Assembly (NCBI RefSeq): GCF_001540865.1
Contig: NC_033638.1
Location: 6,205,474-6,269,473, forward strand
Length of the DNA stretch: 64,000 nt
From: Ananas comosus
Taxonomy: Eukaryota > Streptophyta > Magnoliopsida > Poales > Bromeliaceae
Reading direction: 5' to 3'
Below the pieces are notes generated by a model. The model worked only from the letters and a program-made list of their open reading frames with translations, ran no database searches and was not told the origin of the DNA. Shown in pieces: positions 1,197 through 62,285 of the stretch (the first letter of the stretch is position 1; every line of letters begins with the position of its first letter). The translations under genes were made by a program, and so were the position numbers.

Positions 1197-1770
1197 CTAC
1201 CAGCTTGCGATCAATTCGGTAAATCTATTACTCGTACCACGCACCGCAGTCTTTCTCATCCACTTATCCCAAACTATCAATACATCATCGCCCAGTTCCT
1301 CTGCGTGGACATCCTCAAGTCCCATCACCATGATGTACCTGAGAAAGACGCATTGAGTGAATAGATGGTCCACAGTCTCGTCGTGGTCTTTGCACAACAC
1401 ACAAGCTATTTCTCCAGTCCACTCTCTCTTAACAAGGTTATCAGTTGTAAGCGGTCTTTTCTTAAGCACGAGCCAGCAGAACACCTTGACCTTGAGTGGT
1501 ATACGGAGTCTCCAGATCTTGCTAGTGCGTCCATCTCTTGTTCCTCCATCGTTCAACATCCTATAGGCCGATTTGACTGAGAATATACCGCTGCTACACC
1601 ATCTCCATACTATCACGTCCATATGTTGGCCTACCTTAAAGCTGCTAACCCTATCTTTGAGCGCAGAAATGTTGGGTCCAAATCCAGTCAAGAGGGTCGC
1701 GTCATCTGTAACATACCGGACTTCTAAAGTTATGAAGTCATGGTGTAGGTTGGGCTGGAAAACTATTTGA
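1197..1770 (-). pseudogene. LINE C-terminal zinc-binding (zf-RVT) fragment
   Basis: The minus-strand open frame (longest from 1691 to 1197, with in-frame sequence upstream, VTDDATLL) contains SGIFSVKSAYRML, KIWRLRIPLKVKVFCWLV and a CVLCKDHDETVDHLFTQC cysteine/histidine motif. This is the zf-RVT domain found after the reverse transcriptase in plant LINEs. Here it lies on the 5' side of the RT fragment at 1-1010, opposite to the normal order. The two pieces are therefore separate or rearranged copies, joined near the N and TA tract at 1054-1080. Confidence 0.88.
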
Positions 1771-25289: not shown

Positions 25290-26370
25290 ATTTATATGAA
25301 TCTTCAATATTTTTTACCACGTGATAAATTTTTCTTCACCCTCGATTACCAGCGTGATTCTTTTCTTTTTCTTCATCAAATTTTTAATATGTATCTAAAC
25401 AGTCCCACTACCAAACTTTTAATTAGTGCATTTAAAGTTCTGTTACAATCTACAATTTTAACCTTAATTTCTATCTCCAATTATTCATCATGGCCTTTTC
25501 TTTTTTCTCTACCAGACTTTCAATTAATGCATTCATACAATCTGCTGCCATCTACCATCCTCACTTTCTTATCTCCAATTAATTCATCAATTCTTTATCT
25601 CTCATATTTTTCTATACACTGTCGCTTTCTTTCCTCCCTTCCTCTCACTAGTGCGCGCTCACTTTCCCTCTCCATTACGGTCGGAGGGATCGTTGTCGCT
25701 GTCATTATCACCGTCCCTGGAGAAGGCATCGTCGGGCGCCAACGGTCACTACAACAAAAACGGTGTATAGCAATACTTTTAAATATTGGTACATGTAAAA
25801 AAAAGTGCTGCTGACTAAATTATCCACACTTTTTAAAAGTGTTGCTATATGTGGGGTCGTTATAGGTAGGGCCGCCTTGATATTTGGCACCCACTACTCC
25901 AGCGACCTGTGGCGAGGGATACGTGGCGATCGTAACCCTCTACGGTCCCTACGAGATCCTCATGGCCAAATTCCAGTTGCCGGAACTCTACCACGTTGAC
26001 TGCGGCGGCGGAGGAAGAGAAGGAGAGATGGTGATCATTTTTTTTCCCTTCCTTTTTTATTTGTAATCGGGCCGAGTGGGTTTGGTGTGGTTGGTTGAGT
26101 AGAGAAACTTTTTATTGTTGATTGGATTGGGGCTTTATATTTAGGCCTTAATAAATTTTTTTTTTAAAATTTTTGCATAAATATGACACTTCTATAAAAG
26201 TGTCCCAAAAATGTGTCTCTATAACCTAATTCTGTTATAGTGAGTAGGAAATCTCTGATAGCTGTAGCAAGTGAGATACACAAGAGGATATGATGTTTGA
26301 TATAGTTTCATTATTAATTATTGCTACAGTTTCTATTCGCTGCGAAGTGCGAACCCCTTCACTAGTATTT
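25290..26370. repeat. Dispersed repeat split by a CACTA-type MITE; related copy at 53,100-53,760
   Basis: The phrases ATTCATCAATTCTTTATCTC, GGAGGGATCGTTGTCGCTG and CTCTCCATTACGGTC recur as reverse complement at 53,260-53,700. ATTAATTATTGCTACAGTTTC (about 26,310) matches 53,165-53,200 the same way. The middle is interrupted by the element at 25747-26242. No protein is recognised, although one frame stays open for 170 codons. Confidence 0.7.
25747..26242. mobile_element. Short CACTA-type MITE (inverted relative to the copies at 55.9 and 59.6 kb)
   Basis: Starts CACTACAACAAAAACGGTG and ends CCTAATTCTGTTATAGTG. Inside are TTTTAAAAGTGTTGCTATAT and GGGTCGTTATAGGTAG, shared with the other copies in reverse complement. 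The interior also carries a short GC-rich piece. Flanks (GGT/AGT) are not identical. Confidence 0.85.
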
Positions 26371-27174
26371 TATATATTATAGGAAGAAACAAAACTAAGC
26401 TTCAAACTTATTCTTCTCTTGTTTTAACCCAAAAAAAAAAAAAACAAGAAAGAACCTTTTCAAAGGATTTTAATAAGAGAAAAAAATCTAGAAAATAAAT
26501 AAATAAATAATTTACTGCAGCGAAAATCGTTATTTTCTGTTTGAATGTCGAATGCAAATTAAGCACTTAATTACTCTCCGCTGCTGTACGTGTTTAATTA
26601 ATTAATTGGCCACACCTTCCAGAATGCGTACCCACACACTAATTACAAAAGGTTGAAAACGGTCAATTTTTGAAAAAAATATATTGGCATTCATATTTTT
26701 ATCAGACACAAATTCTAATGCGAATATGCGTTGGATGTTAAATTTTTGTTACCATATTCGTCAAAAATGAATTCAGATTCAGCTATGAGTCGGATTTATA
26801 TATAAATATGAATTAAAATTGGTGTGAATAAAACACATAGTGCAATTAAAGGTTCACACTCGTGTTCAAAGGTAGTATACCTGTATTAATTAGTCAATAA
26901 AACTTAATATTTTAACAAATATTAATACAATTTTAATATAAAATTTATAGTAAAATAAATGAGGAATATAATAGAAAACCGTTTTATCCTTCTACAATAT
27001 ATATTAACATTTCTCTTATCTTTTAGGAGTGAAAATGGTTGAATATGGTTAGATTTTTTAAGAAATCATATTCGCATTCATATATACATATTTTTTTGGA
27101 TGTGAATTCGGATACGAATATATGTCGAAGAGTTTTTCTAACCACTTTCACCTCTATACACGCGCACACACATA

Positions 27175-27216
<42 letters not shown>

Positions 27217-27694
27217 CTAGGTTGGTATACTATCGGTAGTACGAAGGCCTCCGTGCTACCAAGTTGTTTTTAATGATGCGGATTCCAAATCGGCGATCAG
27301 CTCCATTAGACTTAATCTACACTATNAGGATCCTTTTCACGATTAGGAAAAATCCTAAAACTCTCAAAATTTGATTCTAATAAAAAAACCCCCCCCACCC
27401 CTCATTACAAAACATACAAATATACGACCAGTTATTATATATCGAGTAAACTCTTCGGTTTCGTGACCACTTCTCCTACAATTAATTGAATACGGGAGGT
27501 AAAAAGTAGATGTATGTAATGTATATATGTGGCCCATGTACCTTAAATACTTTTAAAATTTTAAGGTAAAGATGATCACCTAAGGTTGTCCTAAGTCTGA
27601 TACCAACCAACGGTTCCCTATGAGGATTTATATTTAAACTGAATCTTATTTTCATTATATTCCGAAATATATATATATATATATATATATATCA
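26371..27694. other. Intergenic AT-rich DNA with TA microsatellite
   Basis: TA run 27180-27214, directly followed by a fragment related to the 24,010 element (GGTTGGTATACTATCGGTAG). N at 27326. No gene. Confidence 0.5.
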
Positions 27695-27917
27695 GGCCGA
27701 CCCTATGATAGCTATCGTACTTTATAAACCACGATAGTTCAAAAGATGGCTATCTAAATGAAGAAAATAGTAAAAGTAGGCAAGCTTATATGATAAGTTG
27801 GTTGGTGAGTGAGTTGAGATTCCCCAGGTGTAGTAGGATTGGCGTGTAGAAAATTAGATTCCTGTCTTTTGAATTATCGTGGTTCAGTAACCACGATAAT
27901 TATCATAAGGTCGGATC
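27695..27917. mobile_element. MITE inserted inside a TA microsatellite
   Basis: Left CCGACCCTATGATAGCTATC and right GATAATTATCATAAGGTCGG are inverted, as are ACCACGATAGTTCAAAAG and CTTTTGAATTATCGTGG. ATATATAT runs flank both sides, and a CT run follows at 27943-27981. Confidence 0.85.
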
Positions 27918-27939
27918 AAGATATATATATATATATATA

Positions 27940-27942
<3 letters not shown>

Positions 27943-27986
<44 letters not shown>

Positions 27987-28909
27987 CTGGATCCCATGTC
28001 CATCTTCGTGGTGGTTGAACCACGATCTCCAAGCTTGGAAGCTTAGGTGAGGTATTCGTGGTTATACTGAACCTAGTTTGTGATAAGGTTGATGGATGTT
28101 TTATGGTGGTAGTAGCGTTGGAGTGCTATAGTGGTCGGTTCCCTATTTTTGATATTTCTTGGTGTTTGAACTACGAAAAGCCTCATAATTTTGATGTGAT
28201 ATATTTATATATCTAGTAGTCTTTATATTTTTATATATATTTATAAATTATATACATTTTTTTATATATCTTATAATGTTTATAAAAGATTATTTTATAT
28301 TGTATACTTAAATATTTAATATTTAAAAATTTATTTATATTACACGTTTAAATATTACTAAATTTTATTTAATTTTATTAAAAATGCACGTAAACGTGCA
28401 TGTGAGTTGATCATATATATATATACCTATTTGAAGTTTATAGTGAATACACCAAAGCATGAAAAAATAAAATCATAAGATACTAAATTTTATATATGAA
28501 ATCAAAAGATAAAGCAGTTCCGGAGGCAATTTAAAAACAATTTAATATATATTTTTTTTTGAAACCTATAAGGTGGATACTAAATAGCTTATAAGTAAAA
28601 TTTTTAGACACTCAAATGGCTTAAAAATAAAATCATAAGACACTAAATAGAGAGAGTAACCAAATTGCTTTTTAAATTATTTCTATTTCTTTTCTTTTTT
28701 TATTTTAGATACTATATAAAATTTCATATTTCATAATTTAACTCTTTCGCTCTTTAATGCTCCCACTATAAATTTCAAAAGGTATATATATATATATATA
28801 TTACCTGCCGAAGAGGGAGGGGGCAGGAAAGAGAAACCTGAGGTGGAGAAAGGGGACTCGAACCTCTGAGGTACCTCTCTGATGCTTTCGCGAGGGTTAT
28901 TAATTTTTT
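27943..28909. other. CT microsatellite, then AT-rich intergenic DNA up to the mirror block
   Basis: (TC)n at 27943-27981. A short GC-rich stretch near 28,800-28,890 includes GGGGACTCGAACC, a B-box-like word. No gene. Confidence 0.5.
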
Positions 28910-29690
28910 TTTTTTTCTTCTCTTGGGATTCCTCAGAGGAGAAGAAGTAGAGTGTTTAAAGTGCCACTCGAGCAAGCTCTTTTAAAACATTGAAAAAAAA
29001 AAAAGTTAAACCCCCATTTAAAAGTTCTAAACAACGGTTTTTGGTAACTCGTTCCTTACATCCTCCTTTTTATTTTTATTTTTCCACGCCCTAGAGAAGA
29101 AAACAGGGCACAAACGAAAGATTAAAGCTATAAGCTTAGTATAAAACAACAGCAATAATATCGTCTCTCATCCACAAGACAAAAGAACAAAGCCTAAACA
29201 CGTAAATGAACGAATAAACAAATGCGTAGTAAATAAAAAATGACAAAGTAACTAAGCACCATAATACGACGGTGATAGTTGATATTAAAAAAAAAAAAAA
29301 AAAAGACATCATACTCGTTAATTAGTAGTAAGGTGATTTTACAGCTGATCACTTTAAGCGTTTGTTTTGGTATTGAATAAAGAGTTTTAATAGACAGCAT
29401 TAACACGAAAAGGTATCTCCGAATTTTAACTGCGACTATAGTACAATGGGCAGTTTAGCTAGACTTTCTTTTGCTACGTCCTTATCAGAGCTTGATTGCG
29501 GCTCAGGATCCTATCACAAAACTCAAACAGGAACAGTTCGCTTAAACGTACTATCAGGATCTTACTACAAATCTAACATGAAGCGTTCAAGGACGTACAA
29601 AGCATCTCTGTGACTTTATAAACCAGAAAGGTCCTCTTCGTATTAACGTGTAAAGTCATGACCACTCATTCTTCTTGTTATCGACGTCAA

Positions 29691-32600
29691 TACGTTCTTA
29701 GGTTTTACTTTAGAAGCTTCCACTCGAAGAACAACGAAGTTAGGGCATCAAATTGTATAAAAACTACACACCACACATACTCTACGACAGCTGTCTTGTG
29801 AACCACGTACGTATTTACGAGCTAATATATGCATCTGCAGGTGGCGTAAGAGTTTGTACAAATATACTCTATATATACGAAGGCACAATCACATGTTAAA
29901 TCAATCTACGTTCGTTCATGGAGGTTAAATATACTATCTGCGCCTGTTTCACAACCGGTATCACGAACTAACGACGTGGTTGACGGGTTCATTAACATTA
30001 ACACTCAGTAGTTTACCATAAATCGAGTGATCCTCAACGACTTCTTCGTCTTGGATTAAATATCACGAACGTCTCTAAGTAGAATGTACTTGCTCCGAAT
30101 AAGGTCTCAAAATGGTTTTACTTTATTGAGTTTTTTTATCTTATTTAAGACATTACACTCTGTTAGACTTTAAAACGACCTTAGTACTTATCGCGAAGGA
30201 AAACGTCCTGTGAGCTTCGTGGCGTCTTCACGTTGGTGGACATGTTCAATACGTGCTGAATGTTTCATTGGCCGTTTTAGTTGATCGGCTACTCCGAGGA
30301 CCTTGCCTAAGATCAAGCTATGGTCGATGTTGACCACTATTATCTTTCCAAAGAGTACTTCTGTAACTTGAGCATTCTACTAGTCTAACCTAAACTTTAT
30401 AAAGCTGATATTAATACACCTTTATAAAAAAAGATATTAACTTTACGTTAAGCTCGAGAATAGAATGTAACAATGGCATTTTGAACGACAACGTCCAGGT
30501 CTTAAACTATCTCGCAACAGATGTTGACATATACTTATTCCGCCTTCACCAATCCTGAGAAAGATGAGCACGATCTTATCTTGGACCAAAATGATGTGAT
30601 CCACCCATATATGGTTTTCTGTGTAAATATCATCATGGCAAACTGTAATTACTTAATCATAAGTATATAACCACGTAGTAATTTCACCGTTCAGTATAAA
30701 AACATTCGACAAATATACGACATATGTACCGTTTTGTGACTCCCCAGATCAACAGGAAGTTATAGAAGGAAAAGGTAAAAATTCACGAAGTACGTGCGAT
30801 ATTATCAATTATTCTTACTCATTATTGTACGCGAGAGGGCATAACACACCATGACGTTTGGTAACTTTGGGCAGTTTGTTATCATGGGTCTAACAAACTA
30901 ACGTTTGTGGGTAAAGGGCTCGTCATGAACAGACTATGAAGAAATTAATACAAAATAAACTTAGTAAGTAATTATACGACTATTAAAAATAGAAACCTAA
31001 TCATACCGTCTTTGACCTTCTTCTTTTAAGACTCAAGAAGTCCCGAATGATGTAGTCCGACTTTAACTTTTTTGTCTAGTAGAATAAGTTAGTCAATAAC
31101 CTCGTGGTCATGGTAGAGTACTTCATGGGTCGAGGTGGATTCCAAGGTGATTGAGGATATGTTTTACCCTAAGTAGTATACGGACCATTAAAGAGGAAGA
31201 TCTAAGAAGGAACATAGAATCTGAAAAGATTTGTCTTTGAGAAAAGAGATTCGAGATCGTTTAATCGTAGACTAAAATTATAAACATGAACCAAAATAGT
31301 AAGAAGTCTTCTGAACTTTAACCGTTTCTTAAAGAAGATACTATACATTCTTGATGTGTAGATGTATGAATGTCGACGTGCTCACATAAAAGAATATATA
31401 AAGACTACGTGGATGGTAGACAAAGTTAACTCCTCTCAATTTTTCTTTTACTCTTTAATCAAACTATCTGATTTTTGAATAATAGCAAGGTTAATCTCCT
31501 TTTCAACGATACAACGTAACCAAGTTTTCTTTTAGTCGTAAATATGATACGTAAGACGGGGGTGTTAGTAGTAAGAATACATATGGTTGGACGAACGTCA
31601 CGTCAATTATTAAATGGGTACCCTATGGGTCAAGAAGTCGTCGGGGGTTACGGTTGTGGTCCAGTTGGAGTAGAGTTAAGATACCCAACGCCTGGTAGGT
31701 CGACAGTACATCACTTGCCTTAAGGACGGGGTCCGTTAAAAGTGGGTTAAACATACTTAAGGCCGTTACTCATTCTGGTACAAAAAGTAAAACGAGAATA
31801 TACAAAAAGGAAATGACTTTACTCCTAGTAGACTAATTACTTCGCTGTCACAACAAAAATCAACTGGTATAGTAAGGAAAGGAATAATTCGTAGACCTTT
31901 ATTTCCCTAGCTCACTCTTGTCTTGAATCCCTTTACTTACCGGGTTGTGCAATGAACTATGAAAAGAACAACTAATCATAAGACCCGGACATTTTTCGTA
32001 TCTAGTATAAAAGAACAATAAGTCTGGAGACATAATTATAGAAATTAGTTTTAATACACAACTTTGTAACATTATTGTCAAAGGCCATATTTCTTCCGTG
32101 GCTTGTGAAAAATCGTTGTGTTTGTCGAACGATGTCTCTATCGCGTGAAGTGACTGTTACACTCATCTTTTTTATTTAATCAACACGGAAAGGATCTGTA
32201 GACATATACGGAGACTTGGTGGTTGATTGTTCATCCTCTAAACCGTCCATTAAATGAAACAATACCGCCCATTCAATGAAATCGTGGGCTTATCCGAGAG
32301 TTAGAAGTCCCATGAACCGGTGTAACAACTATGAGTTATAGACGACAAGTTTAGAAAGAGATTAAAGTTGACGACACTGCCGATCATTATGTAAAAAGGA
32401 AGATAACGTTAACCCAAATATTTACGAATTATAGGGAAATTTAGCCAACTTCGTAACACTACCTGTTACCGTGTGGACTTCGAAGACGAGCACCACGGAG
32501 AAGTACGTTGTTGTTACGGTACCGGTACTCAGGGCGTAGTCCCCGTAGCTCGTTGTTGGTAAAGGGAAAGTGAGGTAGCCTCTATAGCCCCTACCGGTAC

Positions 32601-33178
32601 CTACGCAGTAAGCGAAGACTTTACCCCTCACTTCCGTGGAACGTTGATCCCGTGTTACCCCCTCAGCTTGTCAGATCGTTGAGCTAGTCTAGGCATCTTC
32701 TTAAAACCTTGAAGTTAGTAAGCCTGAATTGCCGTCTGAACTGATTAAACCTTCCATACAATATACAACCAACTGTGTCTTTTTGATAGTCAATATAACG
32801 AAGAAAACGACGATTATATAAACAGAATCGCGTTTTTAAACCAAGGATAGTCTGGAACCTCTGAACCTCTTGATGTGACCGAGAGACAAGAATGGTAGCC
32901 TGAGCCTGTAGAATGAGCCGAGAGGTCTGGTCCTACTATATCCATTGCACAATGGTGAGTGAAACAAAGAGAAGAAAAAGATGAATATTGTAGTCCTCAC
33001 GTACCAAGTCCCTGGTTTAAACACTAATTGGTATAAAGGATGATCGTTTTAGCCGTAAAGCTACCTCTTGGGACTAGAACTGTGAAACATACAAACGATA
33101 CTAGCGACACAAGGTCAGCTTCTCATGAAACGCCTACAGTAGTGGTCGGGAACAAGGGTTGGTCTACTTCTCTTTATC
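29691..33178. CDS. Plant-specific TIGR01589/A_thal_3526 domain protein, complete, readable only in mirror text
   Basis: Read left to right as the plain complement. Exons are 29691-29720, 30208-30372, 30496-30601, 31003-31185, 31605-31770, 32453-32754, 32853-32942 and 33117-33178: 1,104 nt, 367 residues plus TAG. All introns are GT-AG and all phases fit. The domain lies at about residues 60-130. It has the hallmark segments VQNLIERCLQLYMNK (66-80) and VWQKLEEENSEFF (101-113), followed by RAYYIRLKLKKQI. A Pro/Gln/Met-rich middle (VNNLPMGYPVLQQPPM), a TPSEISGM segment and an acidic tail ending PCSQPDEEK also match plant relatives as I know them. The function is unknown; the family is plant-only and probably nuclear or regulatory by composition, which is inference. 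The first, 10-codon exon is the least certain: an alternative start is the Met in VMHDL of exon 2. The gene is tail to tail with the phosphatase gene, with about 0.9 kb between the stop codons. Confidence 0.92.
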
Positions 33179-33370
33179 ATCTCTTCTATATAAATAGAAG
33201 ACGGTAGTTTGAAACGGCTGAAGTTGAAGATCTAATCCAAGATGTTTAAGTTCCGATGGTAGAAAAGGCAAACACAACAGGAATGTAACTGCCAATTAGT
33301 ACATTAGTAATAAGCAGATAAAAATGGTAAGACTCTTGAAACTTGGAACATAGCTGGGGTCTAAGAAGTT

Positions 33371-33492
33371 CTTTAACGTCTCTTTAATGAGGGTCACTCT
33401 GGTTGAAAGTTACTCACTTTCCTGCCTTCCTCTTTAACGTCTCTTTAATGAGGGTCATTCTAGTTAAAAGTTACTCACTTTCCTGCCTTCAT
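33371..33492. repeat. Two-copy 61-bp tandem repeat between the two mirrored genes
   Basis: The unit beginning CTTTAACGTCTCTTTAATGA occurs at 33371 and again at 33432, with a few mismatches. It lies inside the mirror block, in the short intergenic space between the two stop codons. In the correct reading it contains the phrase GAGAAATTACTCCCAGT. No function is evident. Confidence 0.85.
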
Positions 33493-34094
33493 CTAAAAGC
33501 GTGGGCGGCTATTTGGTTGGAAAAACCCACGTTTCATACTCTGTTATTATTTCCTAATTTAATAGGCCAGCACAGATGAAAAGTGCCTACTTGTCTTAAA
33601 ATTACACTCAAGCTCGAATAATAAATATACGTTAGAGTATGTACATCACTCAAAAACCCTGTTTAAGTTCACCAAGAATTTTGACGTTCGAACACTTTTA
33701 ATACACCTTTGCGAAGAGTTTCATACGGCTAAACTAAATGACAGGGAGTATAGGGCACGAACTTAAAATGTTTGCGAAGTGTCGAGTGTGTTTGGTAGAA
33801 ATTGTTGCTTTACCTTGTGTGAATTATAATGTGCACTTCCGTTATGAACATAAATGACGTGTATGACTAATTCTTGCACTTTTGACGAAATTAACGAACC
33901 TGTCTTCATCCTTTGATGGAGCTCACCGCTGTTGTGGTCGAGAAAACCTCCTTTTTTTTTTTTCTTCGTTGGAATAAATTCTTTTGTAGGTTTTTTGTGT
34001 CTAAGCAATAGAGTTTTTGGTAGTTCAGAGTCACTAGGTAAGTCTTATACCAGGTTCATCGCTTCCTGCTCTTCTTACTTTTTTGAGAAATTAT

Positions 34095-37000
34095 AGTTAA
34101 GAGTGGTCTTTCTCCTCCTAGTAGATATAGGTAGCACAGCACCACCTTAGAGTGGTGTTACGTCCACTACAACAGGCGTGACGGGGCTCTCTTTCGGCAG
34201 AGGCAATCGAAGGCCCGCCGCCGGAGACCATGAAGAAGTCGAGAACGCTCCCTTTAACGTAGGAACACCTACTATTCTTACGTTGTATTGTCATGTTCAG
34301 TCATTACTGATGACTCTCCCTTTGTTTTTCATACTTAAGATAAACTAGATTCATCCACGTAGAGCTGCTGCGGGGTTTAAACGACATCACTTTACGTCGT
34401 TAGTCCCACTCGTTAAAATCAGGGTTAAAGAGGATAGGCGGGTTTAGAGTTTTCCTTTTTTCACTACGGGTTTAATCCATATCCACTTCACGTTATCAAC
34501 CCAACCGGTTAAGGTGTAACGTCAATTAAAGTGGATGAGAAAAATTGAGAGTTTAACTTTTTTCCCTTATTTACGGGGCGTTACTCTTATTAGTGTGGTG
34601 GTCATGTATTTCATTGTTTTAAACGCCTACATTGAAGGTCCCCGTACGTTGGTGCATTTTTATCATGTGAGAGTTGTCGTTCATCAGTTTATTCCATGCA
34701 CGCCCACATTCACACGTTGATAACATACAGATTGATGTATAGGTTACTGTGCCATATATGTTAATGGAGGATCATTTGTCGAGGATTCGTGGTCCTGGAA
34801 TCTAAGTATGTTGACACCATATTGTTATTAAGTTTACGATTCTTAGTGTTTATTTATCAACTCTAGTTTCGAGCCCTTACATTGTCGACTCTAGTATCGT
34901 TCATATTGTCTAACACAAACACACTTTTGTTTTTTTCTTTATTGTGTAAAGAATGCTATTCGAATCTTAATACTTTAATCACATTATATTGTAAGTACGT
35001 ACCTTCCACGTTCCGGTCTCGGTTGTTAGTCTATCACTTTCTTTCATCGTTGAATGGAGCAAACGATGATGTAGGGTATTAGGTAGTCAACGTTCATGGT
35101 TATTGAGGTTAAATAGTAGTTAGGAAAGAAGGACGTCTCTCCTTGAGATACCGAATTCTCATGTAACGGTTCCATTTACAGTACTGAAGGATTCGTAGAC
35201 TATATTGTAAATTTTCTATCGTGCATCCTCATTTAGAAGACACGGGTTACCGGGTTAGAAGTATCGATACGTGCATCTGGTATAAATACAGTTGTTCTAA
35301 AAGTTTCTAAGGCCGAACTATTCTTATATGGTAAGGAACAAAAGGACTTATAAGGTAAACAGATTTATCATGATGTTAATAGAATGAAGGTATTTCAGTT
35401 TATAATTGTGTTTCTTCAGAGAATAAACGGAACCGATTTTGTCATTGTGATTATAGTAGAATTTCGACTGTACATGTAATCTTTATAACAGTGTGTATAT
35501 CATGTCGAATAGGCAACTCGAAGTAAAAGTTGTCTAACGTGTTTAGTATCATTATACCGTGTTTCGTTCGTGCAAAGTCAGTTCGTTAATAAAAAAAAAG
35601 GAGTGTCAAACAGGATTACGTTGTATATTGTTGGATGTCAGGGATTAATTTATTAGGTTAAAATATACACCAGAACCAGTAGTACATCTCGTTAATAGTA
35701 CGTGATTCCTCTCTACGAGGACTCTTTACTCCATTTTTTCCGGTAGTGAATTTATATTAAAAATCAATGTAGTCTTAGTAGATTTTAAATTTTTTGATTG
35801 AAACTCCGTCTCAAGGTTTATTTCAATCTATGGACTTAGAGTCCCAGACGGTGTTGTTTAACGAAGTTTAACGCTAATGGTTTGCGTGCACTGTATCGGT
35901 TATGTGGAGGATGGGAGGTTCATGGACGTCATAATCATTATGTTGCTTATTGTTGGGTTGAAGTATTTAATTATAGATTGGGCTCGAACTCTTCATACTT
36001 TGTTTTCGTATACTGAGTTAGTATAAACCAGTGTGTTTTCCTATAAGATTTTAGTGAAACTTTGATATCGTTCATGGAAATAAAATGTCCAAGCAAGTAT
36101 ACGAACTCTACTAAACTCCGATAAAATTACGTAATTCACGAATTGTTTGTCACGAACGAAAGTTCGATTTCCATTTTCGTTATGTGTAAGGTGTTTATAA
36201 TCGTACTTTAATTTGATTCATCTCTTTTGTTAAAAATGACCTGTCAGCTTCTGAATGGTCGGGTGTATTATTGTGGAGGTCGTAAGAGTTAAGAGAACGC
36301 GAGTAGTGGAGACAAACCGAACACCAGGAGTCTCTCGCCCTACCGATTTTCCTTTATTCCCTTTTAATTCTTTGACGTTCTGATGACCGCCATCCTCTTT
36401 TAGATCTTTTAAGTTTTACTTATACGTATCTTCCCAATTCTTTTGTCGTCAGATGTTTACGCTCATGTTCCTTTACGTACATTGTGTATCGACGTTAATA
36501 TCACATATTGTATGACGTAACACCTTAAGAATTTTACAATTCATCCTTCCGTGTTTTCATTCGACAAACGACTCAAATTTTTCGTATGTGTGTTACTGTT
36601 GAAGGTAAATAGCAATGCCACGAAGTTAAACCCTTGTTAATACATTCTTTCACGGTTAGAAGTCGTTTGTCTTTACGGTGTTTGGTATTACATGTATATG
36701 ATGGAAACGGACGGAAACTATACTGTCGTGCACTTAGAGGTTGTAAACGATGTATGTCTATTAATGGGTGGTTTTGACGTCACCTTCGACATCTTGGTAG
36801 TAGGGACTTTCATGACCTGAGTCGTAGATTCTTCAGACTTAGTCAAAAGACTATACAAAGTCGACGTAAAACGGTCTTCTATCTTTGTTTCTTTAACTCA
36901 TTTCTGTAATAAGTAGTTTAGACTTTGTTTTGCTTTTAATAAGTGTCGTGGAGTTAGTAGCACAGTCGGGTACGTGACGAGTCACTGAACGAGAGGTAGT

Positions 37001-38368
37001 GTAGAGTACGTAAGTTTAGGTTGGTAGGTTTTCTTTTCTTAAAAGTTTAGTTTTCTTCCGGTAATGAGTGAGTTACTAACCACTAACTTCATACTCTTCC
37101 CTACCTTCCGTCTAGCCACCCGTGGTGTACCAACCGTATCACGCGGTCCCTCTTTTACTATTAAAGAAAGTTGTTTCTTAACCTTGATTGTTTCTTACTT
37201 AGTAGTGTATTTTACCTTTTCCGTTCGTATGAATATCGGTTGAAGCACAGACAGTACTTGACACCTACAAAGTATTCCAAAAGCTTATTTACGAGGAATT
37301 CTATGAGCCGACGAGCACTTGGAGGTACTGGACACCATGATTAAAGTGTTAATTTCCTCGTTTTTAACTTTTTCTTTTTTTTATTCGAGTATCTCTTCCT
37401 ACTAGGATGGTAGTTTATGGGGTTTTTCTGACTGACAAACAGGTAGTTAAAAACTATAAAAATGCAGTTTTTTCAGGAGGTACGAGCGAGAAAAGGGAGA
37501 TTTTGAGCTCATAGGTGTTGAGTTAAAAGGTAGGAGTGACTTTAGTCGTTTTGTTGTAACGTCTTTATTAAACTCCACGAAATTATTAAATACCATCGCG
37601 TAACGTTAAATGATGAGGAACCAAAGTTCATTTCTTCCAGGACACTAAAGATAAAATCAAAAGGCATTCCTTGACGGTAGTCTTCCACTGTTTTACGTTT
37701 ATTGTCCCGTCATTCACGATGTACAATGGTGGGTTACCAAATATTTTATTTTACGTCGTGAAACAATGGGTGAAGTGGTCGTAAATGATTGTCTTTTGGT
37801 TTTACTTTTGGCGTACCCTCGTTTTACCATGTAAAACTTGGTGTACCAAAACGGTTGTGATAAAGGAAACGTAAATTGTAGTGATCAGTAATGGTTTGTT
37901 CATGTGTTCGTAAACTACGCTCTTTCTGTGATTGTTTTCACCGTAGTGTTCAACGAAAGTACTTTTACATAGATCGAGACCATGACTACTGATTCAACTA
38001 ATGTTCTTTGTTGTGTTGTAATTAACGCAGCTTTACTGAATCTATATATAGTTTTCATGATCGCTGTAAAGTTTGTAAGAGCTTAGGATGGAAAAGGTTG
38101 GAGGTGATCGCATCGAGGGTAGTAGGAGGGCTAGGAAGAGGGAGTTCTGTAAGCGGCGCCCGGCGCCGAGGTTGCCGACTCTGCTAGGCCTCAGCTCGTA
38201 GTAGGAGTGCCAACGGGATTTGGACGCGGCCGAGACTCCTTTCATTTTGGATCCGGTGTGTAGGTCTAGGGCGGGTGTTTGGGATTTCACGGGGTTAAAC
38301 GAGCTGCTCTTGGGGGAGTCCGAGCAGCACGCGTGCTACTTTAGGAAATACGATCGCTACGTATGGTA
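34095..38368. CDS. Protein phosphatase 2C (PPM family), complete, readable only in mirror text
   Basis: Read from high to low coordinates without complementing. Exons are 38368-38091, 37537-37410, 37330-37232, 36862-36704, 36344-36258, 35924-35833, 35131-35057 and 34262-34095: 1,086 nt, 361 residues plus TGA. Every intron starts GT and ends AG in that reading. An in-frame TAG lies directly before the ATG. PPM motifs in order are SMEDFFD (111-117, metal-binding E/D), DGHGG (135-139), DDGSTAST (189-196), GDSRAV (210-215), SEDHKPNR (226-233), GGVLAMSRAFGN (256-267), TDGLWDVV (296-303) and RGSADNIT (332-339). These place the Mg/Mn-dependent Ser/Thr phosphatase fold at about 94-346. The first 90 residues are rich in Ser and Arg and could be an organelle-targeting leader, but this is not certain. 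The best match from family knowledge is the plant group containing Arabidopsis WIN2 (At4g31750). All catalytic residues look intact. Confidence 0.95.
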
Positions 38369-38761
38369 GATTTAGCCGTCTAGGACCGGACTGTTACGGT
38401 CAGGTGTCGTGGAGCTAGCTTTACAAGCACTTGTGTTTAGAAAAAAAAAAGAAGTTTTTTTCTTTCTTGCATAGTGTTTTTAGGCTAAAAAGAAAAAGGG
38501 TGGCTTATGCGTTGATTTCGAGGTTTTCCTGTGAGAAATAATCGCAAAACCCTAGTTTTAAAGTAGTGTTTTTGCTTTACCGATGCTTTTCTTTGATTCG
38601 AAATGTCGGGGTTTTTTCGCTAGAAAAACAATAGTGGCTTTGGGAGAACTTTTGTCTAGTTTTCGATGCCACGTATTTCTCTAGAGTGCTCTAGCCTTAG
38701 CTCCCTGAGTCGTGGGATGTTCTACAATTTTTGTTGCGTTAGGGAAGGAGAAGGTGTGCGG

Positions 38762-38771
<10 letters not shown>

Positions 38772-38812
<41 letters not shown>
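38772..38812. repeat. GA microsatellite inside or near the mirror block edge
   Basis: A GA run preceded by GT repeats; a shorter GA run lies at 38994-39014. Dinucleotide runs look the same reversed, so they hide a breakpoint. Confidence 0.9.
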
Positions 38813-38815
<3 letters not shown>

Positions 38816-39020
38816 GTATGTATACTCCTAGCTTTCCCTCTCATATTCTCTTTAATCCCAAAGCCAACCCTCTCCTCTCTCGCGCGCACCCCTCTCTGCT
38901 ATTTCCGGCACCACCTCGCCTCACACTCCTCTTCTCTTTCCCTCCTCCGTCCTTTACAAATTCACGTCACTTGCTGTGACACACCTGTGGAGGAGAGAGA
39001 GAGAGAGAGAGAGAAAACAT

Positions 39021-39707
39021 AAGATGCAAGAGCCCTAAGATTGGCACACTAGATACTGGCATGTCCAAATAACGTATTATCACAATAATGGATCATTTTT
39101 ATATTTTTCATACAAATCAAAAGATATTAGACCACATATACATATATATAAAAAAGGTTTCCTTTTATCACGCGGGAAACAAAGTAAGTAATTTTAATAA
39201 TGATTTGAATTGATGTTTTAATTAATTTTATTATGCTGGAGTCTCTTTTCCTTTTCTTTATTTATTATATTTTTCACCACGTTTCACGGAACGTCTATAT
39301 TATTATTTTCATCTTTCCTTATGTGCGAATCGGTAAGCTTAATACTCTCCAAAATTTTGTGTGCTAAGGTTAAAGATTTATCAAATGTATAGTGTCAAAG
39401 GCATACTAAATAAACGCTCTTTTTTTTTTCGAATAAATTGTTTAAAACCCTCTCAAAAACTCTCATCCTACGTGGAGTTGCGAAGACTTTCTTCCTTTTT
39501 TGTGTTATCGATAAAACTAATGTTTATAAACTTAAGACGCGCTTAACTCTCTTTTATTATCTTTAATGCTAATTTGATGAGAAATACGAAATTAAGGTAA
39601 ATTCTTTACAATATTTAGATGAGAAATAGCATAAGATAATAATGGAATAATTAAGAAGTGTACTTGATTATGAGTTAGAAATTTGGTTTCTATATGTAGT
39701 AACAATT
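39021..39707. other. Normal-orientation intergenic DNA right of the mirror block
   Basis: Reads as ordinary AT-rich plant DNA; no gene or clear repeat is seen. Confidence 0.45.
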
Positions 39708-40122
39708 AGAGCTTGTTTGGTTCACCTATTTTGAAATTTGGAATCAAGATGAGGTTCACTCGTTTTTATAGCTGTTATTTATTTTATAAGAATTAGATTT
39801 CGATTCCCATTTCACCCTGGAATGAGAATTATCAAATCCGTTTATGATTTAATACGATTTTGAATTCTAAATTGACAAATTTCAGCGTAAGTCGATCACT
39901 CAATGCTCTTTCTCACAAATACTTCTGTCTTCGGAGTATTTATCACTTTTCCCTTGTTTAGCCAAAATACTCTCTTGAAATTCTAAGTGTTTCAATTGAC
40001 CATTCCGATTTTTATTCCAATATTGAACCAAACAATTTTGGATAATTCATCTTTTTATTTTCTACTCCAATACAATCCAATTTTATTTTCATTCTCCTTC
40101 GAAACATGAACCAAACATGCCC
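39708..40122. mobile_element. MITE with TGTTTGGTTCA ends
   Basis: Left AGAGCTTGTTTGGTTCA and right TGAACCAAACATGCCC are near inverted, with paired internal ATTTTGAATTC-type words. Confidence 0.65.
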
Positions 40123-40589
40123 TTAAAGTTGAATAAACCACCTCTAAATTTTCTCGATAATATAGTAATTTTCAAACTTTATGGATAAAAATTGATCATA
40201 CCCATTACCATCAAAACTTGCTTAATGATAACTTGCTATCAAACAAGAAACTAATACTTTTCCAAGTTCTTTGATCATTAGGTTCAATAGAAAGTCCATT
40301 AGCTTTCTTTTGTTTCATGTGCATTTTTGTACTATTTCCAATATTTAATGCACTATGATCCATACTATGCATGCAAGTTTAATTTTTAGAGATTTAGCAG
40401 AATATAAGAGATTCTGTCAAGTACACAAAACTAAATAAAAGAAGAGATATTTCATGTACTATTTTTAGAATCGTAAGTGCTTTAGAACTTCAATCAACTC
40501 TTTAATTAATTTAGTACTGGAAGTTCTATTTAATTATGTGCCAAACATTCCTACTTGTTTTATATACTAATTAATTTGAATTGATTCAT

Positions 40590-48593: not shown

Positions 48594-50724
48594 GGCCAAT
48601 TTGCATAAAAAATTCACTTATTTTGGACTTTTGCAAAACTGGGCCACCTTTTTCGTTTTTGCAGATTCGGTCCACTTTTTTAGCAAACTGACCAAAATAC
48701 CCTTATTACTTTTTCTCTTTCCTCTTTCTCTCTCTTCTTTGTTTCTCTCGTTCTTTTTTTTTTTTCTCGCCGGCAGAGCGGAGGCGGAGTGGAGGCGGAA
48801 ACGGTCCGTCTCGCTTCTCACCCTCATGCTTTCGCCCTCGCCCTTGCCCTCGTCCATGCACCCCTCATCTTCCTCACCTCCGACCCCGCCAAGGCCGCGC
48901 CGCGACTTTTTTTTTTTGTTTTTTTCTTTTCTTTTCTTCTCCGACTCTTCTCCACCGTCTCCGACGACGACGCCTCTCGCCCTTCCCCACCCTTCTCATC
49001 TCTCCCTCTCCCTCATTTTCTGCCGCCTCCGACGACGATTTATCTTCACCGGCGTCGACGTCGACACCGTAGAGGTCACTGTAGCGCTACAGCCTCGGAG
49101 CGGGGGTTCTTAGCGGCGTCGTCACCGGCGCCGTAGCTGTTGGCAAAGAAGGTGACAAAAAAAATTATGGAAAAAACAGAAAAAAAAATAAAGATAAAAA
49201 ATTATATAAAAAGAAGGATGAAGATGAAATTGCATTTTTAATTACAAAAAAAATTATAAGTTGCACTATTTAAGATGTAAACTGTTGCTTTAAGATAAAA
49301 ATTATACTCTTTGAACGAAAATTATACTATTTTTTATCTTAAACTGCATCCTTTTAAGCGATATTTATACTGTTTCTCCTCTTGTTTACACAGAAATGGT
49401 GCAACAAGAGGAGAAACAGTGCAACAAGAGGAGAAACAGTATAAATATCTCTTAAAAGGGTGCAGTTTCTCCTCTTATTGCATTGTTTCTCCTCTTGTTA
49501 TTTACACTATTTCTTCTATTGTTTACACAGAAATGGTACAACAGAGAAGAAACAGTGCAATAAGAGAAGAAACAGTAGATATATCTTTAAATAGTGTAGT
49601 TTCTCCATCTTGTTGTTACTATTTCTCCTCTTGTTTACACAAAAATGGTTGCAACAAGAGGAGAAACAGTATATATATATATATATCTTAAAACAGTACA
49701 GTTCTTCCTTGTTGCACTGTTTCTCTCTTGTTACACTATTTTTTCTTTTGTTATACAAAAATGGTGCAACAAGAGGAGAAACAGCTGCAACAAGAGGAGA
49801 AACAGTATAAATATCTCTTAAAGGGTGCAGTTTTAAAATAAAAAACAGTGTAACAAGAGGAGAAATGGTGCAACAAGAGGAGAAACAGTGCAACTTTTGT
49901 TTAAAGAGTGTAACTTTCATCTTAATAGATGCAGTTTACATCTGAAAGAGTGTAATAAGAAGAGAAACAGTGTAAATATCTCTCAAGAGTGTAATTTTCG
50001 TTTAAAGAGTGTAGTTTTCATCTTAAAGCTGCAGTTTACATCTTAAGTAGTGCAACTTATAATTTTTTTTACAAGTTAACGATGCAATTTCATGTTCATC
50101 GTTCTTTTTATATAATTTTTTATCTTTATTTTTTTTCTGTTTTTTCTATAATTTTTTTTGTCGCCCTCTCTGCAACAGTCACGGTGCGGCGACGACGCCG
50201 CTAAGGACCCCCGCTCTGAGTCTGTAGCGCCGCAATGACCTCCATGGTGTCGACGTCGGCGGCCGGCGAAGATGCATCGTCGTCGGATGCGACAAGAATG
50301 AGGGAGAGGGAGGAGATGAGAAGGGCGAGGAAGGACGAGAGAGGCGTCGTCGTCGGAGACGGTGGAGAAGAGTCGGAGAAGAAAAGAAAAGAAAAAAGCT
50401 TAAAAAAAAAAAAAAAAAGTCGCGGCGCGGCTTTGGCGGGGTTGGAGGCGAGGAAGGTGGGGGGTGCGTGGACGAGGGCAAGGGCGAGGGCGAGGGCGAG
50501 AGAATGAGGGTGAGAGGCGAGACGGACCGTTTCCGTCTTCGCTCTGCCGGCGAGAAAAAAATAAAAACGAAAGAAACGAAGAGGAGAGAGAAAGAGGAAA
50601 GAGAAAAAGTAAAAATGGTATTTTGGTCAGTTTGCTGAAAAAGCGGACCAAATCTGCAAAAACGAAAAAGGTGGCCCGGTTTTGCAAAAGCCCAAAATAA
50701 GTGAATTTTTTATGCAAATTGGCC
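48594..50724. mobile_element. Mutator-like element with long terminal inverted repeats, no transposase
   Basis: Starts GGCCAATTTGCATAAAAAAT and ends with its inverse, AAATTGGCC. The terminal inverted repeats run for several hundred bases on each side (about 48,594-49,140 and 50,170-50,724). The 9-bp duplication TAATTTTAT flanks it (48585-48593 and 50725-50733), the size typical of Mutator. The arms hold CT-rich and GC-rich DNA that gives long but low-complexity open frames. The core is described separately. Confidence 0.92.
49250..50090. repeat. Core of the Mutator-like element: interspersed forward and inverted 22-bp modules
   Basis: The module GTGCAACAAGAGGAGAAACAGT appears forward at about 49397, 49419, 49649, 49762 and 49868 (some copies with changes). 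Its complement, ACTGTTTCTCCTCTTGTT, appears at about 49370, 49485 and 49615. A second module (TATAAATATCTCTTAAAAGG) and a third (GTGTAGTTTTCATCTTAAA) alternate with it. The arrangement would fold into many alternative hairpins. Confidence 0.85.
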
Positions 50725-62114: not shown

Positions 62115-62274
62115 TTTTTTTTTTTTTTTGAGAGAGATAGGTAGCACGCTACCCGCTTCGTTTATTTCATTTAGAAATAAACTTAGCTGTAAATGTGAAT
62201 CAACTAGGATTCGAACTTGGGATCTCGGATACCAACCATCAAGTCCTTTGCCACTTGCGGCAGGGACGATCGGT
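62115..62274 (-). mobile_element. tRNA-derived SINE, minus strand, intact duplication
   Basis: Poly-T, GAGAGAGATAGGTAGCACGC, AGGATTCGAACTTGGG and GGGACGATCGGT. Exact 11-bp duplication GGAATATACCA at 62104-62114 and 62275-62285, suggesting one of the younger copies. Confidence 0.92.
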
Positions 62275-62285
62275 GGAATATACCA

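Follow-up and report, generated by a model that had tools for sequence, protein, structure and literature searches.

A mirror-written 12.2-kb segment in the pineapple reference genome, likely introduced by gap filling

Mirror repeats and H-DNA are short natural sequences. They share mirror symmetry in name with the sequence described here, in which the mirroring affects the text of a locus that carries genes. An ordinary inversion or orientation error, in which a contig is reverse-complemented, likewise turns part of a scaffold the wrong way round, but such a segment stays readable on the opposite strand, whereas here neither strand is readable. Haplotig false duplication also resembles our case in giving a second, allele-like copy (here of a locus on chromosome C5) at a distance close to published heterozygosity, but our copy lies on another chromosome, C18, and is mirror-written. 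A procedural parallel is the extension of flanks into gaps described for PBJelly, in which new sequence is joined directly to a contig end and a gap remains on the other side (PMC3504050). Overfilled gaps are named in that description as a frequent fault, and in one data set the majority had no explanation; the sections consulted contain no reversed, uncomplemented sequence (PMC3504050). Among titles, openings of abstracts and parts of PMC8774480, with the F153 genome paper outside the search, we found no report of mirror-written assembly sequence.

The window, by which we mean the whole 64,000-nucleotide stretch of C18 analysed, contains two complete, convergent plant genes once part of it is read in mirror order: a PP2C phosphatase (PF00481) and a PF09713 protein. 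Their exon models are as follows.

34095..38368, read in reverse from the higher coordinate to the lower: gene 1, PP2C, 361 aa, 8 exons
38368-38091 (from the start codon), 37537-37410, 37330-37232, 36862-36704: gene 1, exons 1-4
36344-36258, 35924-35833, 35131-35057, 34262-34095 (the last including the stop): gene 1, exons 5-8
29691..33178, plain complement of the text, low to high coordinates: gene 2, PF09713, 367 aa, 8 exons
29691-29720 (from the start codon), 30208-30372, 30496-30601, 31003-31185: gene 2, exons 1-4
31605-31770, 32453-32754, 32853-32942, 33117-33178 (the last including the stop): gene 2, exons 5-8

All 14 introns are GT-AG and keep the frame. Gene 1 matches Pfam PF00481 (PP2C) with an E value of 1.1e-63 and 215.8 bits (curated cut-off, 20.3), and gene 2 matches PF09713 (A_thal_3526 / plant protein 1589) with 7.2e-26 and 90.7 bits (cut-off, 27.8). 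The exon models and Pfam matches thereby bear out the original prediction of two complete multi-exon genes in the mirror reading. The protein search of the reversed text that it had proposed agrees: each of five plant homologues gave 5-8 tblastn HSPs covering 335-361 residues. The same five gave no tblastn HSP in the text as given at 28,900-39,020, in line with the claim that the conventional strands yield nothing, so this text can be read after reversal and on neither of its given strands. Scanning the window for Rfam families and tRNAs returned no matches. One match of the protein query P0001 to the given text at 26,044-26,286 was set aside as chance (weak, 29% identity, one stop).

The extent of the mirrored text was settled from repeat polarity and from alignment to a C5 locus, rather than from composition, and the features that define it are these.

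27178..27325, no strand assigned: dispersed repeat in normal polarity (repeat matches)
27326, no strand assigned: single N, where normal text stops and mirrored text is taken to start
27327..39566, no strand assigned: mirror-written segment, reversed but not complemented (repeat polarity and C5 alignment)
27671..27942, no strand assigned: MITE-like repeat, microsatellite-flanked, mirror-written (repeat matches)
39186..39390, no strand assigned: ~205 bp in the window copy, missing from C5 (C5 alignment)
39679..40140, no strand assigned: dispersed repeat with as-given matches on many chromosomes, where normal text resumes

On the left, four as-given repeat matches in four loci stop exactly at 27,325, and between 27,625 and 28,789 repeats matched the mirrored text only, apart from one 38-bp microsatellite match (E <= 1e-4 in both cases). 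Once mirrored, 27,421-39,566 aligned to C5, and we infer that 27,327-27,420 also belongs to the segment, giving 12.2 kb. On the right, the C5 match runs up to 39,566 and no match of the as-given repeat starts before 39,679 (most start at 39,700-39,714), which places the end of mirrored text between 39,566 and 39,679. The segment has an N at its left side and none at its right. The borders first proposed, 28,910 and 39,010, were therefore too narrow by ~1.6 kb and ~0.55 kb, respectively. A reversal-sensitive dinucleotide index was negative in 10/10 1-kb tiles inside the stretch as first delimited versus 9/52 outside it; one of the nine (27,001-28,000) lies mostly in mirrored text and the other eight do not. 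Borders from composition alone were dropped: k-mer segmentation gave ~26,845-38,410 (k of 3 or 4) or ~26,845-39,567 (k of 5).

Searching the assembly (G000) with P0001 returned a single near-identical locus in normal polarity, on C5. Read from 39,566 to 27,421, the mirrored window aligned in five pieces, each 93-98% identical, to normal-polarity sequence at G000:C5:2,710,427-2,723,783. Across C5 2,710,400-2,721,651, 10,791 of 10,952 aligned columns were identical (98.53%; mismatch, 1.47%), a figure that leaves out the final 2.1 kb of the match, at 95.2% identity. The mirrored text thus has a normal-polarity counterpart in the same assembly, and the alignment establishes that the window segment is a copy of the C5 locus resembling an allele. 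Since this divergence fits the published SNP heterozygosity of F153, 1.54% (PMC6139296), the copy in the window probably represents the other allele, and the agreement of the two figures is that expected of a haplotype false duplication. An element of ~211 bp specific to C5 is flanked by repeated GGTGCATC, which the window copy has once; this is an allelic presence/absence difference. The C5 copy encodes a PP2C protein identical to the mirror-read one, and the mirror-read protein equals an Ananas comosus protein record, located on a 363,399-bp contig, at 360/361 residues. The expectation that both genes would be lost from annotation consequently fails for PP2C, which is present on C5; for gene 2 it may be partly true, because the C5 allele carries a 27-bp duplication with an in-frame stop. 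The proposed view of the reversal as a textual artefact, absent from the real DNA, is upheld by the normal-polarity copy and the 360/361 protein match.

We then looked beyond the window, where the supposition that the error is local did not survive. Eleven further loci were picked because they carry a mirror-written repeat, the successful part of the probe being the MITE-like repeat at 27671..27942, and all 11 contain mirrored stretches. In eight, as in the window, one edge carries Ns (runs of 1, 13, 24 or 25), and in six of these eight (L025, L026, L029, L031, L033 and L034) the other side passes into normal text without N; the remaining three (L024, L027 and L030) showed no N within the 6 kb read at each. 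The stretches in L025 (260 bp, with a 6-mer score that stays positive along its length) and L026 (641 bp, with a dinucleotide index of +0.053) were called from repeat alignment alone, and the extents in L029, L033 and L034 are partly composition-based, with mirrored repeat matches ending up to ~2 kb before one border. Because L024 and L030 have fewer ORFs of at least 60 aa in the mirrored than in the given reading, their polarity rests on repeats and composition. An ORF from mirrored L027 matched an Ensete protein (47% over 85%, E 1.2e-25) and no Pfam family. Another, from mirrored L032, looked Copia-like by eye, and a Pfam search gave no confirmation.

Across the whole assembly, 27 of 965 copies of the MITE end (2.8%), spread over 20 contigs, and 82 of 5,479 copies of a tRNA-like repeat (1.5%) were mirror-written, against a chance expectation of 0.01-0.03. 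Extrapolated from these two families, the mirrored share of the assembly would be ~1.5-3%, or roughly 6-11 Mb. The mirrored MITE-like element has inverted ends and is flanked by (AT)n; by these features it is a candidate for Ac-mMITE, a short microsatellite-associated MITE of pineapple with terminal inverted repeats and (TA)n flanks (PMC8449440).

Neighbouring control loci gave mirror matches in 7 of 20, in nine intervals, all of them 80-94% A+T and none with a negative dinucleotide index. A second search covered eight of these intervals, from six loci (a 33-bp interval in L016 was left out). Five of them (two in L002 and one each in L009, L010 and L019) gave ~64-81% in the mirrored reading versus 65-86% as given; L019 2070-2222 and L017 9781-9931 had few short matches in both readings, and L005 5463-5771 had no match on this second search. 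We take the control matches to be low-complexity symmetry. The interval L002 2033-2333, which adjoins an N at its end, had 11 mirrored versus 6 given matches and is a possible short mirrored stretch. Separately, a 500-bp tile at C18:6,185,001, next to an N and GC-rich by eye, scored -48.

The mirror-written text is thus a confirmed observation, far beyond chance. We consider it likely that the text at ~27,327-39,566 was reversed without complementing in a gap-filling (contig-end extension) step of assembly, because the window has an N on one side only and the fault is N-adjacent at most other loci. Such a step would extend a contig end, or fill a gap, with minus-strand sequence that was reversed but not complemented on insertion; the inserted piece would stem from the other C5 haplotype, and its placement on C18 would be wrong. 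The F153 assembly used PacBio reads (PMC6022998). Speaking against gap filling, a correct gap filler would not choose a C5 segment for C18, and three of the 11 loci (L024, L027 and L030) show no N in 6 kb. Mirrored stretches of several kb without inner N (the 12.2 kb of the window, L024, L027 and L030) would also suit the writing of whole minus-strand contigs in reverse instead of reverse complement at scaffolding. We find this unlikely: a scaffolded contig should carry N on both sides, whereas the window, L025, L026, L029, L031, L033 and L034 join normal text without N on one side, and three such N-less joins flank mirrored stretches of only ~0.3-0.6 kb.

It is very improbable that the public record is normal and the copy examined was altered after publication, by file handling or as a planted test, because mirrored sites of one probe fall at 27 places on 20 contigs, with a hybrid structure at gaps. 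A chromosome that truly carries the reversed base order on the same strand has nothing in its favour beyond the text itself, and we regard it as hardly credible. An allele-like copy exists in normal polarity, and mirrored text often adjoins assembly gaps. Strand polarity and the chemistry of repair and transposition permit inversion only with complementing. Chance resemblance, dismissed from the outset in the original prediction, is negligible and already refuted by the two Pfam E values, the near-identical C5 locus, and the 27 and 82 mirrored copies where 0.01-0.03 were expected.

The best reading is that the mirror-written stretches are a large fault in the reference genome, an assembly artefact and not biology. 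It is an even call whether a strand-handling bug in a single assembly step reversed ~1.5-3% of the reference (roughly 6-11 Mb), made part of the cultivar-specific sequence unreadable, and left mirrored DNA invisible to alignment in other published drafts as well. For any assembly, a comparison of its k-mers with those of the same text reversed is a cheap screen that could be made part of routine quality control, and a reverse-without-complement fault can be looked for in gap-filling tools. Because standard tools cannot align, annotate or map such text, it is taken for "specific" or "unknown" DNA. A comparison with two other pineapple genomes described 15,973 F153-specific regions (24.18 Mb) absent from both (PMC8824783); some of this sequence may be mirrored text, with the proviso that the study may have used another F153 version. 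A mirrored share of 1.5-3%, if correct, would bias the gene counts, repeat content and presence/absence comparisons that build on this reference.

The original prediction held that 28,910-39,010 gives two multi-exon plant genes solely when read in mirror, that is, reversed without complementing, and both genes were recovered with Pfam support. The mirror reading contains a PP2C phosphatase gene (gene 1; 361 aa, eight coding exons; PF00481, E = 1.1e-63) and a gene for a PF09713 protein (gene 2; 367 aa, eight coding exons; E = 7.2e-26). Gene 2 lies on the opposite strand of the mirrored text, which is the window's plain complement, and the two genes are convergent. All introns (seven in each gene) start with GT, end with AG and preserve the frame. 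By tblastn, five homologues gave no matches to the region as given. Among the best 120 matches listed for each protein, the source organisms, where named, were plants. The closest PP2C relative listed was an Ananas comosus protein encoded on a 363,399-bp contig, and it agreed with the mirror-read protein at 360/361 residues, including an N-terminal part absent from the query. The top match listed for gene 2 was an A. comosus var. bracteatus protein (89%).

Querying the assembly, which we take to be that of pineapple F153, with the pineapple PP2C located its exons in order and in normal polarity on contig C5. Once mirrored, window 39,566 to 27,421 aligned with C5 2,710,427-2,723,783 in five pieces at 93-98% identity. 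Over C5 2,710,400-2,721,651, 10,791 of 10,952 aligned columns were identical, with 22 gaps, and the last 2.1 kb, past an N at C5:2,721,652, showed 95.2% identity. The mismatch of 1.47% is compatible with the 1.54% SNP heterozygosity given for F153 in PMC6139296. The PP2C encoded on C5 is identical to the mirror-read one. C5 carries an element of ~211 bp between repeated GGTGCATC copies, a site that occurs a single time in the window copy, and ~205 bp of the window copy are absent from C5. These differences are allele-like, and the second haplotype of C5 is the probable source of the window copy, which would then be misplaced on contig C18, where the window covers 6,205,474-6,269,473. In exon 6 of gene 2 (loci L022-L023, covering the C5 counterpart), a 27-bp duplication carrying an in-frame stop is present on C5 and absent from the mirrored copy, and reflects either an allele or an assembly error. 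The N at C5:2,721,652 (L023) stands between two contig ends that overlap but are unmerged. Window 28,357-29,578, once mirrored, matches C5 twice around it, and this double representation indicates that single Ns in the assembly can mark unmerged joins.

To the left of the segment, the given text is matched up to 27,325 by repeats drawn from the window flanks and 200 kb of neighboring sequence; four matches stop exactly there, and a single N follows at 27,326. From 27,625 to 28,789, these repeats match in the mirrored text alone, one 38-bp microsatellite match excepted. To the right, the mirrored text is alignable to C5 as far as 39,566. Beyond this, a dispersed repeat is matched in normal polarity, with most matches beginning at 39,700-39,714 and none before 39,679. 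Repeat polarity and the C5 alignment therefore place the segment at ~12.2 kb, for which the predicted borders of 28,910 and 39,010 are too narrow. A dinucleotide index whose sign flips on reversal, taken in 1-kb tiles, was negative in 10/10 tiles inside the region and 9/52 outside; as eight of the nine negative outside tiles lie in text without grounds for calling it mirrored, the index of a single tile is not decisive. The zf-RVT domain of a LINE-like remnant (1,197-1,691, minus strand) is in normal polarity, which shows the left flank to be readable without mirroring. Elsewhere in the window, 48,594-49,331 and 49,985-50,724 are the ~740-bp arms (87% identity) of a large inverted-repeat element, with more repeats between the arms.

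The anomaly had been described as a local artefact; it is an artefact, but not a local one, as all 11 further loci read contain mirrored stretches. When 27,327-28,900, which holds the mirrored repeat, was searched in its written form against the whole assembly, many strong matches were returned. Forty of 342 candidates were scored and 11 loci (L024-L034) were chosen from the top of the list, with 6 kb read in L024, L027 and L030. In each of the 11, other repeats also match mirrored text. An N run of 1, 13, 24 or 25 stood at one edge in eight loci, and in seven of these the mirrored repeat matches ended 0-29 bases from the N; in L034, the stretch reaches N by composition rather than by repeat matches. 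No N occurred within the 6 kb read in L024, L027 or L030. Seven long mirrored stretches, the window's among them, comprised 76 tiles of 500 bp, of which 69 scored as reversed, versus 23 of 393 control tiles, an optimistic control figure because those tiles doubled as the training set. Repeat alignment alone identified 260 bp in L025 (6-mer score positive) and 641 bp in L026 (dinucleotide index +0.053) as mirrored. Mirror matches appeared in 7 of 20 neighboring control loci, every one within stretches of 80-94% A+T. One AT-rich control stretch (L002 2,033-2,333, C18 near 6,107,200) ends at a single N, with 11 mirrored repeat matches versus 6 as given, and could be one more short mirrored segment. 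In L027, on the 24,379-base contig C654, mirrored text makes up most of the 6 kb read. A 223-aa mirrored ORF of L027 resembles an Ensete protein (47% across 85% of a 161-aa portion), and on this similarity is probably further coding sequence readable in mirror.

The amount of mirrored text was estimated over 381,958,007 bases in 3,128 contigs from a conserved 20-base MITE end (up to one mismatch) and a 20-base piece of a second repeat:

62,115-62,281: very abundant tRNA-like repeat, B-box-bearing by eye; four related copies lie at 52-59 kb

The MITE end was counted 938 times in the normal reading and 27 times mirrored (2.8%, 95% interval 1.9-4.0), the mirrored copies lying on 20 contigs and including the window's, and the 20-base piece of the tRNA-like repeat 5,397 and 82 times (1.5%, 1.2-1.9). 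An order-2 Markov model predicts 0.01-0.03 mirrored copies by chance. On the assumption that these repeats are an even sample of the assembly, mirror-written text would amount to 6-11 Mb, the lower figure being safer because MITEs may be commoner near gaps.

Flipping of whole contigs at scaffolding predicts gaps at both ends, whereas the window's mirrored stretch, like those of six of the 11 loci, is bounded by N on one side and joins normal text N-free on the other, in both orders. This anatomy suits contig-end extension into gaps as the likely origin: contig ends would have been extended into a gap by added mirrored sequence, with N remaining on one side. PBJelly, described in PMC3504050 as adding contig-end extensions and leaving a reduced gap, is on anatomy a candidate example of such a step, and the F153 data included PacBio and Moleculo (PMC6022998). 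The accuracy of the fill (intact genes, 360/361 residues) suggests accurate reads or contigs as its source rather than raw long reads. N-free joins lie in or beside (AT)n runs in L026, L031 and probably L029, where a wrong overlap may have been allowed because (AT)n reads identically when mirrored; the joins in L033 and the window have no (AT)n run.

The literature searched, which misses most subscription journals, yielded no report of mirror-written assembly sequence as an error class. The mirrored segment is not a biological feature; mirror-written text may plausibly have consequences for pan-genome comparisons.
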